A stretch of DNA of 64,000 nt, taken from contig NZ_CP053746.1 in NCBI RefSeq assembly GCF_013201545.1, forward strand, positions 4,788,501-4,852,500. Reading direction: 5' to 3'. The notes below the pieces were generated by a model that saw nothing but the letters and a program-made list of their open reading frames with translations, was not told where the DNA came from and ran no database searches. This document shows, piece by piece, positions 14,061 to 46,185 of the stretch. Source of the stretch: Pseudomonas graminis. Its GTDB lineage: Bacteria > Pseudomonadota > Gammaproteobacteria > Pseudomonadales > Pseudomonadaceae. Both the position numbers and the translations under genes were made by a program. Position 1 is the first letter of the stretch. Each line of letters starts with the position of its first letter.

Positions 14061-16001
14061 TTAGCTGTCGAGCATGGCCCTCACCTTCGACAGAAATTCA
14101 ACCAACTGGAAGGGCTTCAGGATCATGTCCATCCGTTCGCCCAGAAAATCCTGTCGGTTGAGCGCGTTCTCCGCGTAGCCGGTCATGAACAGCACTGGCA
14201 GGTCGGGCCGCCACCCTCGGCCGCGCTGGGCCACTTCGCGGCCGTTCATTTCCGGCATGCCCACGTCGGTGAGCAAAAGGTCGATGGTGCCGTCATGCTC
14301 CAGGCACGACAGCGCCGTGCCGACATCGGCCGCCTGGGTGCAGCGGTAACCGGCATCGGTGAGGACTTCATTGACAAACATGCGCACCGACGCCGTGTCT
14401 TCGACGATCAACACGTGCTCCCCCGCGCCCTGCGCGGCGACGGCGGAAGGCTGCTGCGGCTCGACGCTCTGCTCGTCCGCCGCCGGCAACAGCAGCGTGA
14501 CCTCGGTGCCGTGACCGACCACGCTGCGAATCTGCACGTCGCCGCCCGACTGCCGGGCGAAACCGTAGATCGTCGACAGGCCCAGGCCGGTGCCCTGGCC
14601 GATCGGCTTGGTGGTGAAGAACGGGTCGAATACCTTGTCGATCAAATGGTGTTCGATGCCGACGCCGTCATCGCGCACGGTCAGGGCGATGTACGCGCCA
14701 TCTGCCATGCGTGAGTGGCCCTGGGAGTAGGTCTCGAAGGTGCTGATCCAGATATTGCCGCCCGACGGCAATGCGTCCCGGGCATTGATCACCAGGTTGA
14801 GCACGGCGCTTTCGAGCTGGCCGGCGTCGACCATCGCCACGGCGCTACGTGAAGTCAGCTCCAGCGTCAGGCAAATGCCTTTGCCGATGGTGCGACCCAG
14901 CAGGTCCTCGAGGGAACGCACGTATTGATTGACGTCAGATGCGCGGGTATCGAGGGGCTGCTGGCGGGCGAAGGCCAACAGACGATGGGTCAGTGCCGAC
15001 GCGCTCTTCGCCGACGCCAACGCGGCATCGGCATACACCATGACTTTTTCGGGGCGGCCGTCTTCGGTGCGTTTCTTGACCAGCTCAAGCCCGGTGACGA
15101 TACCCGTCAGCAGGTTGTTGAAATCGTGGGCGATGCCGCCGGTGAGCTTGCCGATAGCGTCCATCTTCTGCGCTTGCAACAGTTGTTCTTCGGTCCGGGC
15201 GCGCTCGGCGACTTCATGGGCGAGCCGGCTGTTGACCGAGTCCAGTTGCTGCAGATGCGACTGTTCGCGACGGCGGTGCTCGGTGACGTCTTCGATGAAC
15301 ACCAGGCTCATGCCGCTCTCCCGGTACGGCGAAACCTGCCATTCAGTCTCGCGCAATTCACCCTTGACCCGCATGCTCAGCGTGCCCATCCAGCGCTCCC
15401 CTGCGTCCAGCGCTTCGCGCAGGCCGTCGAGGGCCGAGCCCTGATCTTCGCTGAAGCTGCGCAGCACCGCCCCCTCATCGGCGCCTTGACCCAGCAGTTG
15501 GGCAAAGGCGTGGTTGGCTTCGTGGACGTTCAGGCTGCCGTCCATGACCGCAATCGGCGCCGAGACGTTGGCAAAAATCTCGCGGAAGCGCTCTTCGCTG
15601 TCACGCAATGCGTATTCGGTATCACGCACCCGCAACAGCGTGCGCAGCGTGGCAAGCAGCACGTCGGGGTCGACCGGGTGCACCAGATAGGCGTCCGCAC
15701 CTGCTTCCAGGCCGGTGACGATGTCGCCGGTCTGGATCGACGCCGCCGACACGTGCACCACTGGCAACAGCGCCGTACGGGGCGCAGCGCGCAGCTGACG
15801 AACGATGTCAAAGCCGCTCATGTCGGGCAGATTGACGTCGAGAATCAGCGCGTCAGGCAAGCGCTCGGCGATCAGCGCCAGACCTTCGGTGCCGGTGCCG
15901 GCCTCCGCCACCTTGAACCCCTGGCGCTCCATCCGACGCCGCAAGGCGTAGCGGGTGGCGGCATTGTCATCGACGATCAGCAGCCGGGTTTCAGGCTTCA
16001 T
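14061..16001 (-). CDS. Hybrid histidine kinase (REC-PAS-HisKA-HATPase-REC) of the stressosome operon
   Basis: The protein is 646 aa and soluble. Order: receiver (about 5-122, D55 in ALILDVNLPDMSG), PAS (about 135-245), HisKA with H292 in GGIAHDFNNLLTG, HATPase (with DDGVGIE and GQGTGLGLSTI) and a C-terminal receiver (LLLTDVGMPEMNG). In the first receiver the usual conserved lysine before proline is replaced by histidine (AYLVHPVDP), so its phosphorylation switch may be altered. The C-terminal receiver keeps LKPF. The gene overlaps the preceding kinase gene by 11 bases and ends the rsbRSTX-kinase-kinase unit. It is a likely output for the RsbT/RsbX branch, though this is inferred from position only. 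Confidence 0.9.
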   Translation of the reverse strand: MKPETRLLIVDDNAATRYALRRRMERQGFKVAEAGTGTEGLALIAERLPDALILDVNLPDMSGFDIVRQLRAAPRTALLPVVHVSAASIQTGDIVTGLEAGADAYLVHPVDPDVLLATLRTLLRVRDTEYALRDSEERFREIFANVSAPIAVMDGSLNVHEANHAFAQLLGQGADEGAVLRSFSEDQGSALDGLREALDAGERWMGTLSMRVKGELRETEWQVSPYRESGMSLVFIEDVTEHRRREQSHLQQLDSVNSRLAHEVAERARTEEQLLQAQKMDAIGKLTGGIAHDFNNLLTGIVTGLELVKKRTEDGRPEKVMVYADAALASAKSASALTHRLLAFARQQPLDTRASDVNQYVRSLEDLLGRTIGKGICLTLELTSRSAVAMVDAGQLESAVLNLVINARDALPSGGNIWISTFETYSQGHSRMADGAYIALTVRDDGVGIEHHLIDKVFDPFFTTKPIGQGTGLGLSTIYGFARQSGGDVQIRSVVGHGTEVTLLLPAADEQSVEPQQPSAVAAQGAGEHVLIVEDTASVRMFVNEVLTDAGYRCTQAADVGTALSCLEHDGTIDLLLTDVGMPEMNGREVAQRGRGWRPDLPVLFMTGYAENALNRQDFLGERMDMILKPFQLVEFLSKVRAMLDS

Positions 16002-16872
16002 TGGCAGGCTCCTGGGCCAGCGCCAACGGGATCACCACGTAGAACGTCGAGCCCACACCGGGCTCGCTCTCCACGCCGACACGCCCGCCCAGCAATTCGG
16101 CAAAACGCTTGCACAGTGACAGGCCCAGACCGGTGCCGCGCAGGCGTTTCTGCAGGGGCGAATCGACCTGAGTGAAGTCTTCGAACAGGGCACCATGAAG
16201 CTCCTGGGGAATGCCAATACCGGTGTCGGTCACGGCAAAGCGAACCGAGTCCTCGGCTTCCAGCCGTGCCGAGACGCGCACTTCACCGCGCTGGGTGAAC
16301 TTCAGCGAGTTGGAGATAAAGTTGCGCAGAATCTGCCCCAGTTTTTGATCGTCGGTGTACAGCCTGGGCAAGCCCACGGGCGCTTCGAAGATCAGGTCCA
16401 CGGCGGAGGCGTCGACGATGGGACGGAACATGCCACGCAGTGCCGAAAACAGATCGAACATGTCAAACCACGCCGGCGAGATGCTGATGCGGCCGGCTTC
16501 GATCTTCGCCAGGTCCAGCAGGTCGTCGACCATGTCGCTCAACTCCCGCGCGGCGGTGCTGACAAATGCGACCTGCTTGTGCTGTTCCTCGCTCAGGGGA
16601 CCGTCCAGTTCATCGGTCAACAGACTGGCAATGCTGAGGATCGACCCGAGCGGCGTGCGAAACTCATGGCTCATGTAGGACAGGAAACGGCTCTTGAGGT
16701 CGGAAGCCTGACGCAATTGGTCGGCTTGATTCTCAAGTTCGGCGTACAGCGCGAGAACCCCCTGGTTGGTCTCGTCAAGCTCGGTGCGCAGGGCAACGGC
16801 TTCGGCGCGCGAGCGTTCCAGCTCAAGTTCGATAGACCCCTGAGGCGTCACACGGGCGTTGTGGTCAGTCAT
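15991..16872 (-). CDS. Sensor histidine kinase (coiled coil-HisKA-HATPase) of the stressosome operon
   Basis: The product (293 aa) has no membrane segment and no classical sensor domain. A Glu/Leu-rich predicted coiled coil (about 13-58) leads into HisKA with H69 in SYMSHEFRTPLGS and an HATPase (about 165-285) with DTGIGIP and GTGLGLSLCK. Such sensor-less kinases usually take their signal from a partner protein. Here the partners are probably the products of the upstream rsbR-S-T-X genes. The gene overlaps the rsbX-like gene by 8 bases and the hybrid kinase by 11. Phosphate could pass from H69 to a receiver of the adjacent hybrid kinase. Confidence 0.9.
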   Translation of the reverse strand: MTDHNARVTPQGSIELELERSRAEAVALRTELDETNQGVLALYAELENQADQLRQASDLKSRFLSYMSHEFRTPLGSILSIASLLTDELDGPLSEEQHKQVAFVSTAARELSDMVDDLLDLAKIEAGRISISPAWFDMFDLFSALRGMFRPIVDASAVDLIFEAPVGLPRLYTDDQKLGQILRNFISNSLKFTQRGEVRVSARLEAEDSVRFAVTDTGIGIPQELHGALFEDFTQVDSPLQKRLRGTGLGLSLCKRFAELLGGRVGVESEPGVGSTFYVVIPLALAQEPANEA

Positions 16873-17902
16873 CGAGCGTCTCCAGAGCCATCACCAATAC
16901 CGTTACATCGTCCCTGCCCCGGCAATAATCGCGATGCAAGACCGCTGCGATGATTGCCGGATGTCGGTACACCAGGCCTGGATAATCGCGAAGATTCCAT
17001 CGCGATTGCAGGCCGTCGCTGAACATGATCAACAGCTGCCCGGTGCAATCGTCATAGTCCATCGGCGGTATTTTGCGGTACTGCAGGCCGACGATGCCGG
17101 GGTGCGAGGGAATACCGCGGGTTTTCTCGTCGCCAATCAGCGTCGCGCCGATGTTACCGATGCCGATAAAACGCAGCTTGCCTGTCGCGCCGTCGAACCG
17201 CACCAGTGCTGCCGCGCCGCCACGGCTGCCTTGCATGTCGACGTGCAGGTCCTCCAGCAGCACGCCCGGATCGGCGAACGGAGTGCGAATGAACGCACGT
17301 GCGCCGGCCATTCCCGCCGCTTCGGCTTCAGGGCCGTGACCGAGGCCGTCGATCATCATGATCGACATCTGCTGCCCCTTGACCGCGACCTCCCACACAT
17401 CGCCGCAGGCCGGGTCATCGTGCAGCGAATGCTGGGTGATGCCCATGCGCAGGTCTTTGACCGTGGCTTTGCGCGGGAAGAAACGCGCCAGCAACACACT
17501 GCCACGCGCGTCGCTGTGCACATCGAAGACTTGCGCCTGGCGCAGCACGGCGCCCAGGCCGATGCCTTGGGTACCGCGGGTGGAAAAACCATCGGCCATG
17601 CAGTTTTGCACGTCGAACCCCTTGCCCCGGTCGATCGCGATGATCTCGACGCCCGGCGCTGAACGCGAGGCATCGCCCGAGGCATCACCCGGCAGCGCGC
17701 GCACATGCAACTCGCCGCTTTGCGCATGTTTGAGAATATTGCTGGCCAGTTCGGTGACGACCAAGGCCACACGGCCGCAATCGGCTTCGTCAAACCCCGC
17801 CTGTTCGGCCAGTCGTTGCACCGTGCGCCGTGCGTGCCCGACCTGACTGATGTCTTCGATCGACAACACCTGGGTCAGATGACTGTGCAGGTTCACGTCC
17901 AT
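16865..17902 (-). CDS. RsbX-like protein: HATPase (anti-sigma kinase type) fused to SpoIIE/PP2C phosphatase
   Basis: The protein (345 aa) combines two activities. The N-terminal half (about 15-145) is a GHKL ATPase with N-box VVTELASNILKHA and a DRGKGFD / GIGLGAV pair. The C-terminal half (about 150-340) is a SpoIIE/RsbX-type PP2C phosphatase with MMIDGLGHGPEAE, GIGNIGATL and FSDGL. In Bacillus, RsbX removes phosphate from RsbS and RsbR to reset the stressosome and lacks the kinase part. The fused form suggests one protein that both phosphorylates and dephosphorylates. It overlaps rsbT by 10 bases and the following kinase gene by 8. Confidence 0.88.
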   Translation of the reverse strand: MDVNLHSHLTQVLSIEDISQVGHARRTVQRLAEQAGFDEADCGRVALVVTELASNILKHAQSGELHVRALPGDASGDASRSAPGVEIIAIDRGKGFDVQNCMADGFSTRGTQGIGLGAVLRQAQVFDVHSDARGSVLLARFFPRKATVKDLRMGITQHSLHDDPACGDVWEVAVKGQQMSIMMIDGLGHGPEAEAAGMAGARAFIRTPFADPGVLLEDLHVDMQGSRGGAAALVRFDGATGKLRFIGIGNIGATLIGDEKTRGIPSHPGIVGLQYRKIPPMDYDDCTGQLLIMFSDGLQSRWNLRDYPGLVYRHPAIIAAVLHRDYCRGRDDVTVLVMALETLDD

Positions 17903-18297
17903 TTGCAGATCATCACGCGCGTACCTGCGCCGGGTGCGGTGTCCAGCTCGAAGTCGTCCACCAGGCGCTTGGCGCCCGTCAGGCCAAGACCGAGGCCGCC
18001 TCCGGACGTCCAGCCGTCGGTCATCGCCAGCTTGAGGTCGGGAATGCCGGGGCCTTCGTCGCGAAAGGTCAGGCGCACACCGACGCGCAGGCCGTCTTCG
18101 ACAATCTGCCAGTCCATGTCACCGCCGCCGCCATAGACCATCGTGTTGCGCGCCAGCTCGCTGACCGCCGTGACCAGCTTGGTCAGGTCGATCAGGCGCA
18201 TGCCGCAGTCCTGCGCCAGCTTGCGCGCGGTCTGCCGCGCCAGCACGACATCTTGCTCGATGCGAATGGGCTGAGTGCCGCTGCTGCGCTCGTTCAT
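17893..18297 (-). CDS. rsbT: RsbT-like serine/threonine protein kinase (stressosome switch protein)
   Basis: At 134 aa this is a single GHKL ATPase domain. N-box ELARNTMVYGGGG is near residue 46, G1 box RDEGPGIPD near 79 and G2 box GGGLGLGL near 98. RsbT is held by the RsbR/RsbS complex. On stress it phosphorylates RsbS and RsbR, is released, and activates a partner by protein contact. The classical partner RsbU is missing here, so the RsbX-like protein or the downstream kinases are candidates. Start and stop overlap neighbours by 4 and 10 bases, showing translational coupling. Confidence 0.9.
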   Translation of the reverse strand: MNERSSGTQPIRIEQDVVLARQTARKLAQDCGMRLIDLTKLVTAVSELARNTMVYGGGGDMDWQIVEDGLRVGVRLTFRDEGPGIPDLKLAMTDGWTSGGGLGLGLTGAKRLVDDFELDTAPGAGTRVMICKWT

Positions 18298-18656
18298 TGA
18301 GAATAGGCCCGCTCGCGCAGCAGCTTCATGCCGCGCTCAACGTTCAGCGCGGTGCTCACGCCGGGCAGGGTCATGCCCAGCTCCACCAGGGTAATGGCGA
18401 CGGCAGGCTGCATGCCGACCAACACGGTTTCGGCGTCCATGATTCGCGACAGGCCGGAGATCATGCCAATCATCCGACCGATGAACGAATCGACCATGTC
18501 CAGCGCGGAGATGTCGATCAGCACGCCGCGCGCCGAAGTGCGGCTGATGCGTTCGGACAGGTCATCCTGCAGCGTCAGCGCCAGTTGGTCGTGCATGTCT
18601 ACCTGAATGGTCACGAGCAGAAAGTCGCCCATCTGCAGAATCGGGATGCGCTCCAT
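18294..18656 (-). CDS. rsbS: RsbS-like STAS-domain stressosome core protein
   Basis: The product is a 120-aa single STAS domain, the length of Bacillus RsbS. It begins MERIPILQMGDFLLVTIQ, and the phospho-acceptor segment DISALDMVDSFIGR has S57 at the position of Bacillus S59. RsbS forms the stressosome core with RsbR and sequesters RsbT until phosphorylated. A longer frame upstream is not family-like. The ATG at 18656, four bases after the rsbR stop, fits both length and spacing. Confidence 0.9.
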   Translation of the reverse strand: MERIPILQMGDFLLVTIQVDMHDQLALTLQDDLSERISRTSARGVLIDISALDMVDSFIGRMIGMISGLSRIMDAETVLVGMQPAVAITLVELGMTLPGVSTALNVERGMKLLRERAYSQ

Positions 18657-18660
18657 GGGC

Positions 18661-19512
18661 TCATACCGCCTTGGTGATGGTGACGCCGAGACGGCGCAGG
18701 GCCAGCGCGAGGGCATCGGCCAGATTGGCTTTGGTCACGACGCCTTGCAGGTCCAGACCCAGGTGCACGATGGTCTGGGCAATCTGCGGACGCACGCCGC
18801 TGATAATGCAGTCGGCGCCCATCAGGCGAATCGCCGTGACGGTTTTGAGCAAGTGCTGGGCCACCAGGGTGTCAACGGTGGGCACGCCGGTGATGTCGAT
18901 GATGGCGATTTCCGCGCCGGTGTCGACGATGCGCTGCAACAGGGATTCCATGACCACTTGGGTGCGTTGCGAATCCAGCGTGCCGATCATCGGCAGCGCC
19001 AGCACGCCATCCCACAGTTTCACCACCGGGGTGGACAGCTCGAGCAGTTCTTCCTGCTGACGCTTGATCACCGCTTCGCGGGACTTCTGATAGGTACGGA
19101 TGGTGTGCAGGCCCAGGCCGTCGAGCAGTTCGGAGACCTGCATCACTTGCTCGGCAACCAGCGCGGGCTGGTCGGCAAAGTCGCGCTGCAGTTGCGCGAA
19201 CAGGGGGCCTTTGAGGGCGAAGATAAAGCTGGCGGTTTGTTGGGAGTCCTGACCGGCCAACGCGCGCTGGCTGGAGAGTTTTTCCAGGAAGTGGCGAACG
19301 TCATCCCACTCGCCTGTGGTGATGTTGACCGAGCCACCCTTCTCAAGGGTCGAGGTCAGCAGACGCAGGAAGTCGGCGACCTGCTGGCGGATTTCCTCGG
19401 GCTTGAGATTGCGCGTTGCGCCGCTGGCTTCCAGATCGGCGTGCCATTGGACAGCCAGTTGCGATTCAGAGCGCTTAAGGGCGTCAACGGTGAGTTGTTG
19501 TAATGCTGCCAT
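18661..19512 (-). CDS. rsbR: RsbR-like stressosome sensor (RsbRD-type N domain + STAS)
   Basis: The protein (283 aa) has an all-helical N-terminal domain (about 5-150), matching the RsbRD N-terminal type rather than the globin or LOV type, and a C-terminal STAS domain (about 158-278). The STAS part keeps the MIGTLDSQRTQ and DITGVPTVDT segments. By my alignment from memory, the two RsbT-target positions of Bacillus RsbR (T171, T205) correspond to S181 and T215. N-terminal domains of RsbR proteins project from the stressosome and sense signals; the signal here is unknown. This is the first gene of the operon. Confidence 0.9.
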   Translation of the reverse strand: MAALQQLTVDALKRSESQLAVQWHADLEASGATRNLKPEEIRQQVADFLRLLTSTLEKGGSVNITTGEWDDVRHFLEKLSSQRALAGQDSQQTASFIFALKGPLFAQLQRDFADQPALVAEQVMQVSELLDGLGLHTIRTYQKSREAVIKRQQEELLELSTPVVKLWDGVLALPMIGTLDSQRTQVVMESLLQRIVDTGAEIAIIDITGVPTVDTLVAQHLLKTVTAIRLMGADCIISGVRPQIAQTIVHLGLDLQGVVTKANLADALALALRRLGVTITKAV

Positions 19513-19697: not shown

Positions 19698-19726
19698 GAA
19701 ATACGCGTGCCGCCGGTAGGTGTCAA
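19698..19726 (-). promoter_or_regulatory. Candidate sigma70 promoter for the rsbR operon
   Basis: On the minus strand TTGACA (19726-19721) is followed after 17 bases by TATTTC (19703-19698), about 185 bases before the rsbR start. The -35 box is perfect and the -10 box weak. It is a candidate only. Confidence 0.4.
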
Positions 19727-19778: not shown

Positions 19779-20348
19779 TTAAAACACGCTGTCGACCAAT
19801 TGAACATAGATGGAAAACGCGCCCAGCAAAAACCAGAACGCCGTAAACAGCCACGGTGTGCGCATCGAAAACATCAGCGACTTGCGGTAGCCCTTTTCGC
19901 TGGATTCGTGCTCGCTGAACAACGGCGAATCGTCATAGGCCAAGCCCATGGCCGGCTGACTGCTCAGCAATTGGGCCTGTTTGAAATGCCAGTGGTCGAT
20001 GATTTCGTACGCCGCGCGGATGCCCGGCCAGGCGTGCATGGAGCTGATCAATCCGAGCAATGTCAGAAAGGGCGGCACCACCAGCGTGAACATCTTGCCC
20101 CATTCGGGATTGAGGTTGGCCATCGACGAGGCGAAGGCGATCACCAGAAAAGACTGCGCGGACAGATAGGCGTTGGTGCGGTTGGACAGGATCGCTGTCT
20201 CGTACTGGATCTCCTTACGGTAGAAATCCAGCCGGTCCTTCGGCGACCCGAACAGCATGGCGTCTGCCACTTGAGCGTTAGCGGACTGCTCCGCGGCGAT
20301 CGGGTTGCTGCTGGTAATGATGGTCGGTGTTTCCATGTCACGGCTCAC
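19779..20348 (-). CDS. Conserved hypothetical two-helix membrane protein
   Basis: The family cannot be named with certainty. The 189-aa protein has a charged, soluble N terminus, two hydrophobic stretches in the middle (FLVIAFASSMANL and FTLVVPPFLTLLGLISSM) and a third near the C terminus (LFTAFWFLLGAFSIYVQL). Conserved-looking motifs are RLDFYRKEIQYET and YEIIDHWHFKQ. The start is GTG at 20348 with AGGAG about 7 bases upstream; an in-frame ATG lies four codons later. It sits upstream of the stressosome operon on the same strand with a 266-base gap, so functional linkage is possible but not shown. Confidence 0.7.
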   Translation of the reverse strand: MSRDMETPTIITSSNPIAAEQSANAQVADAMLFGSPKDRLDFYRKEIQYETAILSNRTNAYLSAQSFLVIAFASSMANLNPEWGKMFTLVVPPFLTLLGLISSMHAWPGIRAAYEIIDHWHFKQAQLLSSQPAMGLAYDDSPLFSEHESSEKGYRKSLMFSMRTPWLFTAFWFLLGAFSIYVQLVDSVF

Positions 20349-21619: not shown

Positions 21620-21709
21620 GACTTCTCGCTGGTTACTTCAAACGGGGTGGCGGGCTATGGACAGCGGAGGACGCAGCTGATTCAAAAAGCGCCGGATACG
21701 GTCTTCATA

Positions 21710-21802
21710 GTGGGATTGGCTTTAGCCGGGAAAGCGTCGGACGTCACGCCGCAAAATCGATGTTGTACGCACTGGCCCCTTCCCGGCTGAAGCCGGTCCT
21801 AC
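21710..21802. repeat. REPIN: inverted pair of REP units
   Basis: One unit at 21710-21735 (GGCTTTAGCCGGGAAAGC core) and an inverted unit at 21774-21802 enclose about 40 bases. They lie between divergent genes. Confidence 0.8.
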
Positions 21803-45378: not shown

Positions 45379-45514
45379 CGGTTGCCCTCAGGCGTGCGGC
45401 GGGGCAACGAGGACGAAAACAGCGCAGGGCCGGCCGAAGCAGGCGCGCGGTTCAATTCGCCACCGGATCACCCCGCCCGGTTGTAGTGGAATTCCTCGGC
45501 CGCTTGCAGGCGGT

Positions 45515-45695
45515 CCGATTCGAGGCAGGTCTCCTGGCTCACGGCGGCCGGTTACTGACAGGGATCGTCAGGCGACTGGCATTCATCGCGCCTTCCCGCT
45601 CGCGCAGTGGCTGTGCAATGAACCTGTCCGTTTACAGTTGCGGGGGCAGCTGCGGCTTGAAACCGCATTCCCTTCTTAGCGCCGGTGGCTTTCAT
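45515..45695 (-). promoter_or_regulatory. Cobalamin riboswitch controlling cobW-cobN-chlI-chlD
   Basis: Read on the minus strand, the conserved elements appear in order: GGGAATGCGGT, CTGCCCCCGCAACTGTAA, GCCACTG, GGGAAGG, GATGAATGCCAGTC and the 3' box GAGCCAGGAGACCTGCC. The spacing fits an AdoCbl aptamer. High B12 should lower expression of the downstream genes. Confidence 0.93.
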
Positions 45696-45867
45696 AAAAG
45701 CGGCCGGCGAACCTCAAGTGCGCAAGGCTACGCAGTGACTGGAGGCCGGTCAATCGCGCTTTGCAGTGAGTGCCGCGCCAATTGACGCACCGATCGCTGC
45801 ATCGATTGACCCATCGGCTGAAGGGTCGATTGACGAGCCAAACAGCCCGTGGTCTCCTACACACCTT

Positions 45868-46075
45868 GTAACGGGTGCCCTTCACAGGGTGAAACGGGAA
45901 ACCGGTGCGTGCAGACCTTCGGGTGTGTATCAGTCCGGTGCTGCCCCCGCAACGGTAAGCGAGTGAAGAGTCAGATCCACTGTGTCGGCAGCGATATGGG
46001 AAGGCGATTCTTGAAGGCACGACGGCCGTAACGGCTGATGCATGTGCCCCTCGCGAGCCCGGAGACCGGCCCGAC
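45868..46075 (+). promoter_or_regulatory. Cobalamin riboswitch controlling cbtB-cbtA-cobE
   Basis: Conserved elements are in order: GGGTGCCCTTCACAGGGTGAAACGGGAAACCGGTG (split arms), GCTGCCCCCGCAACGGTAA, ATCCACTG, GGGAAGGCG and the 3' box GAGCCCGGAGACCGGCC. It ends about 110 bases before cbtB. It is divergent from the cobW riboswitch, with only about 170 bases between the two aptamers. Confidence 0.93.
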
Positions 46076-46185
46076 AACACACCATAACAACCCGCGGTGG
46101 GCGGGCGCTGTTGAGCACTGCCGGCATTCGCCTGCGGTGTCTTTGCGCCTTTCCGTCCGCTGAAACCACTTCAGAGGGAAGCGCC

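Follow-up and report, generated by a model that had tools for sequence, protein, structure and literature searches.

A predicted stressosome module coupled to histidine kinases in Pseudomonas graminis and related bacteria

The stretch of DNA analysed here, referred to as the window, comprises 64,000 nucleotides (nt) of Pseudomonas graminis (bases 4788501-4852500 of a one-contig genome of 5.52 Mb). Six genes run along its minus strand from 19512 to 14061, as the earlier note on this DNA had correctly placed them: rsbR, rsbS, rsbT, an rsbX-like gene and two histidine kinase (HK) genes, HK1 and HK2. By genomic evidence, this six-gene unit is a true stressosome module coupled to histidine kinases. 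The gene products, with lengths in amino acids (aa), and the sites discussed below are as follows.

18661..19512, minus strand: RsbR, 283 aa; RsbRD_N (globin-like N-terminal domain), long helix and STAS (Pfam)
18970..18972, minus strand: codon of RsbR Ser181, expected RsbT target; aligned to a Thr that is Ala in chain 9o3o
18868..18870, minus strand: codon of RsbR Thr215, expected RsbT target; aligned to the Thr of the VDT motif
18294..18656, minus strand: RsbS, 120 aa; STAS domain (Pfam)
18486..18488, minus strand: codon of RsbS Ser57, expected RsbT target; aligned to the DSF serine of Bacillus/Listeria RsbS
17893..18297, minus strand: RsbT, 134 aa, predicted GHKL switch kinase; Pfam HATPase_c/HATPase_c_2, count of N, G1 and G2 box motifs, and tree
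16865..17902, minus strand: RsbX-like protein, 345 aa; HATPase_c_2 and SpoIIE (Pfam)
about 17848-17486, minus strand: RsbT-like HATPase part of the RsbX-like protein (Pfam)
about 17377-16988, minus strand: SpoIIE/PP2C phosphatase part of the RsbX-like protein (Pfam; PDB match to 3zt9, E 5e-11)
15991..16872, minus strand: HK1, 293 aa; HisKA and HATPase_c after a short N-terminal coil, no RsbU_N (Pfam)
16735..16770, minus strand: HK1 coil motif TNQGVLALYAEL (residues 35-46), proposed input site; conservation and DNA pattern
14061..16001, minus strand: HK2, hybrid kinase of 646 aa; REC-PAS-HisKA-HATPase-REC (Pfam)

The genes had been described as overlapping to form one unit. Overlaps were indeed found at rsbS/rsbT (4 nt), rsbT/rsbX (10 nt), rsbX/HK1 (8 nt) and HK1/HK2 (11 nt), but rsbR and rsbS do not overlap and are separated by 4 nt.

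In PDB sequence searches, RsbR matches chain 7o0i_B of the Vibrio stressosome (E 6e-34) and RsbS matches the RsbS chain 6jhk_A (E 1e-31). An AlphaFold2 (AF2) model of RsbR, with a predicted local distance difference test (pLDDT) of 80 and a predicted template modelling score (pTM) of 0.54, gave fold matches that include a globin-like fold. No invariant histidine occurs in residues 1-140 across 19 RsbR sequences, and the sensor domain would be globin-like but probably non-haem. The RsbS of the window is identical to the RsbS in two P. graminis records. Alignments support the earlier assignment of RsbR Ser181 and Thr215 and of RsbS Ser57 to the expected RsbT target positions; both RsbR residues are invariant in 19/19 aligned RsbR and Ser57 in 11/11 aligned RsbS, and the serine equivalent to Ser57 is Ala in chain 9o4r_a. 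For RsbR, one target site has been named in the literature, and the other is presumably a target as well. The accessible text of the source names RsbS S59 and RsbR T205 as RsbT targets (PMC8508746). RsbT of the window has intact N, G1 and G2 boxes of the GHKL family; with the patterns that we defined, all three boxes were present in 25 of 31 RsbT rows, the six others being distant rows that miss the G2 pattern. At the sequence level, RsbR and RsbS possess the components of a stressosome core, and RsbT is a switch kinase whose target residues are present.

The label "rsbX-like" stands for the phosphatase half of the fourth protein and needs refinement for the rest, since Pfam assigns it two domains. 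It is predicted to combine an RsbT-like GHKL kinase domain and a PP2C phosphatase in one chain. When the window was compared with 30 fetched loci, 21 of these 31 carried this RsbX fusion, 6 had a second RsbT-like protein as a free gene, and the remaining 4 had no second RsbT-like domain over 100 bits. In a midpoint-rooted tree of the RsbT family, built from 126 columns (few for 68 rows), the RsbX-fused RsbT-like domains form one clade (98/80) separate from RsbT.

The earlier note had also held that sigB, rsbU, rsbV and rsbW are missing. For sigB and rsbU, genome-wide profile searches bear this out: TIGR02980 gave five sigma matches, none over the SigBFG cut-off, and RsbU_N gave no match, with a positive control search in B. 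subtilis. The exclusion of rsbV and rsbW is less strict. Genome-wide, STAS gave eight matches, two of them RsbR and RsbS; the surroundings of four others were read, this reading leaving out two matches in open reading frames (ORFs) of 513 and 523 aa, and not every one of 20 HATPase_c_2 matches was inspected. We take the four neighbourhoods to be chemotaxis-like (4390807), HsbR-like (5387067), RssB/RssC-like (3679204) and Mla-like (661684).

A survey of gene neighbourhoods in other Pseudomonas, which had been proposed as a check, showed that the coupling to kinases is not local to the window. RsbS turned up in 118 of the 298 genomes sampled from the genus (120 copies listed, E 2.2e-44 or better) and HK1, at E ≤ 1e-60, in 125 of 298. 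Every strong HK1 match (over 460 bits; 111/111, in 110 genomes) lies 1,400-1,508 bp downstream of a co-oriented rsbS, a linkage across the genus that is far beyond chance. Weaker HK1 matches numbered 18, of which 5 stood at an rsbS locus and 13 elsewhere. Counted from the other side, 111 of the 120 rsbS copies have a strong HK1, eight belong to a divergent lineage with a divergent HK1 (seven loci fetched, L005-L011; the eighth, G280, rests on a 588-aa open frame), and one, in G207, is an exception. In the named collection, where the best 80 of at least 560 relatives were taken, all six genes occur in order at 77 of 80 loci, and contig ends truncate the remaining three; the 77 complete loci come from records of Pseudomonas, Stutzerimonas, Dyella, Luteibacter, Stenotrophomonas and Xanthomonas. 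Outside the genus, RsbS at E ≤ 1e-15 is sparse, with 9/321 class genomes and 21/349 phylum genomes, counts that include the own genome and same-genus ones. Judged by gene order, HK1 and HK2 are near-obligate genomic partners of the stressosome genes.

The exceptional copy in G207 (L003, G207:C1:2710500-2729300) is a decayed second copy, in which rsbR and rsbS are open, rsbT is broken, and no rsbX, HK1 or HK2 was found; a complete module is present at another place in G207 (L004). At G250:C1:999716-999991 the rsbS match spans residues 1-92 only and contains an internal stop, with HK1 still in place. In Stutzerimonas chloritidismutans (L146:5664-7000), about 1.3 kb lie between rsbR and rsbS, perhaps an insertion.

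Relatives of the module place an RsbT-like domain, here called T', on the kinase itself. In the divergent Pseudomonas lineage, whose RsbS is 64-68% identical, the gene after rsbX encodes an RsbT-like domain, coil, HisKA, HATPase and REC in one frame of about 587 aa, and T' shares one open frame with an HK1-type coil in 7/7 fetched loci. The order T'-coil-kinase also occurs in L057 (same family), L050 and L060 (same class) and L062-L064 (same phylum). In 10 of these 13 fused loci, the T' start motif precedes the coil by 180-181 residues, and in L060 by 164; the distance was not scored in L006 and L050. At a further locus, L066, T' is fused to a kinase of the HisKA_2/HWE type. The ten T' domains that scored over 100 bits group in a single clade (100/97), which with midpoint rooting falls on the RsbT side; that of L060, which scored 49 and has lost the N-box Asn, was left out. 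Among 20 divergent regions, 7 have T'-kinase fusions, 4 a window-type HK1, 2 RsbU_N kinases (L051, L052) and 6 other arrangements, and 1 is cut by a contig end. Because RsbT-like domains are fused to the kinase in relatives, a direct functional link between the stressosome set and the kinases is likely. The earlier proposal of a stressosome wired to histidine kinases hence gains genomic support from cross-genus linkage and from these fusions. Single-frame ORFs joining R and S (L050), S and T, and X, T' and HK (L060) turned out on reading to be shadow frames and are not claimed.

Fused and unfused HK1-type kinases share the motif TNxG[VI]xALYxEL just before HisKA. Across 26 kinases (18 unfused and 8 fused; L063, L064 and L066 were left out, their kinase parts being of other types), the coil motif had a mean column conservation of 0.90, close to that of the H-box (0.92). 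The value was 0.77 in the remaining coil before the H-box, and 0.70 in both the remainder of the dimerisation and histidine phosphotransfer (DHp) domain and the ATPase part. As a strict 27-nt DNA pattern, the motif occurs at 105 places in 104 of 298 genomes, all of them at an rsbS locus (105/105); no match was obtained in 180 genomes without rsbS, and a reversed control pattern gave none. Fourteen of the 118 rsbS-positive genomes have no DNA match, and the two of these whose loci were read (G003/L017 and G195/L019) both carry the peptide. The motif is absent in the four fetched of 13 unlinked kinases (L074-L077), which served as controls and are 40-43% identical to HK1. Pfam detected neither RsbU_N nor a sensor domain in HK1.

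Fusions and coil motif together suggest that an RsbT-family domain acts directly on the coil, in cis in the fused forms and in trans in the window. We regard it as moderately probable that the module is a stressosome signalling out through a histidine-kinase phosphorelay, with an RsbT-family domain switching HK1 through its coil. RsbR and RsbS would form the particle and hold RsbT; upon a signal, RsbT would phosphorylate RsbR S181/T215 and RsbS S57 and then leave. Free RsbT would bind the short coil of HK1 and switch the kinase, much as RsbT switches RsbU via a coiled-coil linker in Bacillus. HK1 may then phosphorylate the N-terminal receiver of HK2, and the relay would continue outside the cluster, in a response regulator or Hpt protein encoded elsewhere. 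The RsbX-like protein, as a candidate feedback phosphatase, would be brought to the STAS sites by its own RsbT-like domain and reset the particle. The coil contact, the transfer from HK1 to HK2 and the reset by RsbX are steps that we infer. According to the accessible text of one study, RsbT activates RsbU by ordering its coiled-coil linker, an idea extended there to RsbU_N kinases in stressosome operons (PMC12143880).

Several observations weigh against this phosphorelay reading. HK1 lacks RsbU_N, the documented docking domain of RsbT, and in the accessible part of a Vibrio study attempts to show RsbT interacting with the downstream D1 protein gave no positive result (PMC9237108). The same text reports RsbU_N as undetected in most of the Gram-negative downstream proteins surveyed (PMC9237108). 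The motif is not universal: the RsbU_N kinases of L051 and L052 and the T'-fused kinase of L066 lack it, and it therefore marks the HK1 branch, not every stressosome-linked kinase, its exclusivity applying to the same-genus genomes examined. An order in which T' was fused first and lost later is suggested by the HK tree, where fused forms are basal, but is not significant (approximately unbiased test, p 0.16 for one clade of either group; the outgroup is poor, L052 being 20% filled). Either RsbT or the RsbX N-domain may be the partner of HK1. Finally, no linked output regulator was found at the module, and no gene after HK2 is common to all of six window-type loci compared (L004, L012, L013, L016, L019 and L020). 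A UvrA-like gene neighbours HK2 in both L004 and L016, which are otherwise different loci.

A bolder version of the phosphorelay reading is conceivable but doubtful. RsbT-family domains would be a common plug by which each client, namely the phosphatase and, in fused forms, the histidine kinase, docks on RsbR/RsbS through an RsbT-like domain of its own. The stressosome would then serve as a megadalton store in which histidine kinases are kept silent until stress causes their release or switching; the HK1 type seen in the window would have arisen by loss of this plug and would use free RsbT instead, via the coil.

Of the competing explanations, the one that survives best, though we consider it unlikely, is that the RsbX-like protein regulates HK1 via its N-terminal RsbT-like domain while RsbT modifies the core only. 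This domain keeps the N, G1 and G2 boxes in 21/21 rows and forms its own clade, and rsbX and HK1 overlap, yet in the tree the T' domain fused to the kinase is separated from the RsbX domain and falls on the side of RsbT (branch 86/91). It is rather improbable that HK1 is controlled through Ser/Thr phosphorylation by RsbT or the RsbX N-domain instead of coil binding. Such phosphorylation was proposed by Heinz et al. for downstream kinases without RsbU_N, as far as the accessible text shows (PMC9237108), and RsbT and the RsbX N-domain of the window look catalytically intact; nevertheless, the coil motif contains a single Thr and is conserved at most positions, more like an interface, and the T' of L060 stays fused despite the loss of its N-box Asn. 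We give equally little weight to a placement of the kinases upstream, with HK1 and HK2 sensing and feeding the stressosome, or to the six genes sharing expression only. HK2 contains a PAS domain and is flanked by a receiver at each terminus, and genomic linkage gives no direction, but Pfam shows no sensor domain in HK1, and fused relatives carry the RsbT-like domain at the N-terminal input side of the kinase.

The last alternative concerns a second signalling cassette that follows the module on the same strand.

13904-8716, minus strand: bacteriophytochrome (BphP), single-receiver protein and REC-PAS-PAS-HK-REC hybrid kinase (HK3)

BphP, receiver and HK3 follow the module in this way in the window and in L001, and BphP adjoins it in 7 of 47 rsbS-positive genomes and 4 of 80 named loci, but it is very improbable that the unit is a light-response cassette with them, as the other 40 of the 47 genomes have BphP relatives elsewhere or none found at E 1e-100, G195 carries rsb module, phytochrome and lyt flank gene on three contigs, and 156 nt separate HK2 and bphP. 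The BphP survey covered 54 genomes of our choice (47 with rsbS, 7 without; E ≤ 1e-100) and found relatives in 43, adjacent to the module in 7, which are those with the seven best RsbS matches. The light cassette as a conserved unit was rejected, since bphP is linked in near relatives only.

The closest described systems are those of Vibrio vulnificus and V. brasiliensis, where, in the accessible texts, rsbRSTX (RSTX with D1/D2 in V. vulnificus) is likewise followed by two-component genes and SigB is absent (PMC9237108, PMC10014275, PMC4976288). That RsbRST modules with two-component systems are known in Gram-negatives, as the earlier note had stated, is in print (Heinz 2022). In the Vibrio accounts, however, RsbX is a single-domain PP2C, in contrast to HATPase_c_2 plus SpoIIE here, and Vibrio RsbR is a globin-coupled (haem) sensor, whereas the RsbR family examined here has no invariant histidine; a Vibrio-type haem RsbR is considered less probable on this ground. 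Unlike the Vibrio kinases, so far as these are described, the kinase here contains the coil motif, and some of its relatives are joined to an RsbT-like domain. Loci with RsbU_N kinases resemble the module in having stressosome genes beside a kinase, and control by a coiled-coil linker has been proposed in the accessible accounts (PMC12143880, PMC9237108); this type was met here in L051 and L052, whereas HK1 has nothing but a coil on its input side, where its relatives may carry a fused RsbT-like domain. With the RsbRST-RsbU-RsbVW-SigB pathway of Bacillus subtilis the module has R, S, T and the target residues in common; in place of RsbU_N and a SigB-type factor over the cut-off, histidine kinases follow here. 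The Pseudomonas system that we take to be HsbR/HsbA shares a logic of PP2C, RsbW-like kinase and STAS. The HsbR-like gene of this genome (L071) is at a separate locus about 0.58 Mb away, and no RsbR/RsbS/RsbT set was seen there.

The earlier note had called the signal and output of this type undescribed in Pseudomonas to its author's knowledge, and the accessible literature returned no paper on a Pseudomonas stressosome. Nor did it contain a paper on an RsbT-histidine-kinase fusion, although the Pane-Farre surveys (2005, 2017), which it did not include, may mention one. The system is thus known in kind; new to us are the two-domain RsbX, the RsbT'-kinase fusions, the diagnostic coil and the breadth in Pseudomonas. 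The module addresses the question of how, in Gram-negative stressosomes that lack RsbU, the signal reaches two-component systems. The coil motif and the natural RsbT'-kinase fusions point to a likely contact, for which an assay with two purified proteins would suffice. Since the RsbS marker is present in 118 of 298 sampled genomes, this much-studied genus may harbour a widespread regulator that has escaped characterisation.

The surroundings of the module vary. Among 20 loci of 18 same-genus genomes, the lyt and HK3 flanks of the window recur in L001 only; a relative of the 8xMP-like gene (50%) lies at L003 and one of the dehydrogenase gene (50%) at L012. Because the flanks differ between loci, the unit moves or persists as one block. 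G020, labelled as the same species and without the module, was dropped as an empty-site argument, as its flank is only 74% identical and the label appears doubtful. Two six-gene modules occur on different contigs of G235 (L001 and L002), one with the phytochrome cassette and one without.

Further features lie upstream of rsbR and elsewhere in the window.

19698..19726, minus strand: promoter-like TTGACA-N17-TATTTC, upstream of rsbR
19779-20348: upstream gene, weakly 8xMP-like (24.5 bits, cut-off 30)
45507-45731, minus strand, and 45856-46088, plus strand: two divergent cobalamin riboswitches
21709-21802: recurring stretch of about 95-110 bp

The standard promoter scan did not call the promoter-like pattern, and the promoter and terminator scan was not clearly above shuffles. 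The pattern is kept in the window and four loci while its surroundings diverge, and five of the 79 named loci have it, each from a near relative. Close relatives of the 8xMP-like gene stand beside the module in near relatives only. The riboswitches, about 125 bp apart, scored 101 and 92 bits. The stretch at 21709-21802 recurs many times in G182, G184 and G152 and is a candidate repetitive extragenic palindromic (REP)-like family; the longer query that contains it gave, as a whole, 195, 170 and 99 matches in these genomes, respectively, and 2-4 in the other five genomes searched.

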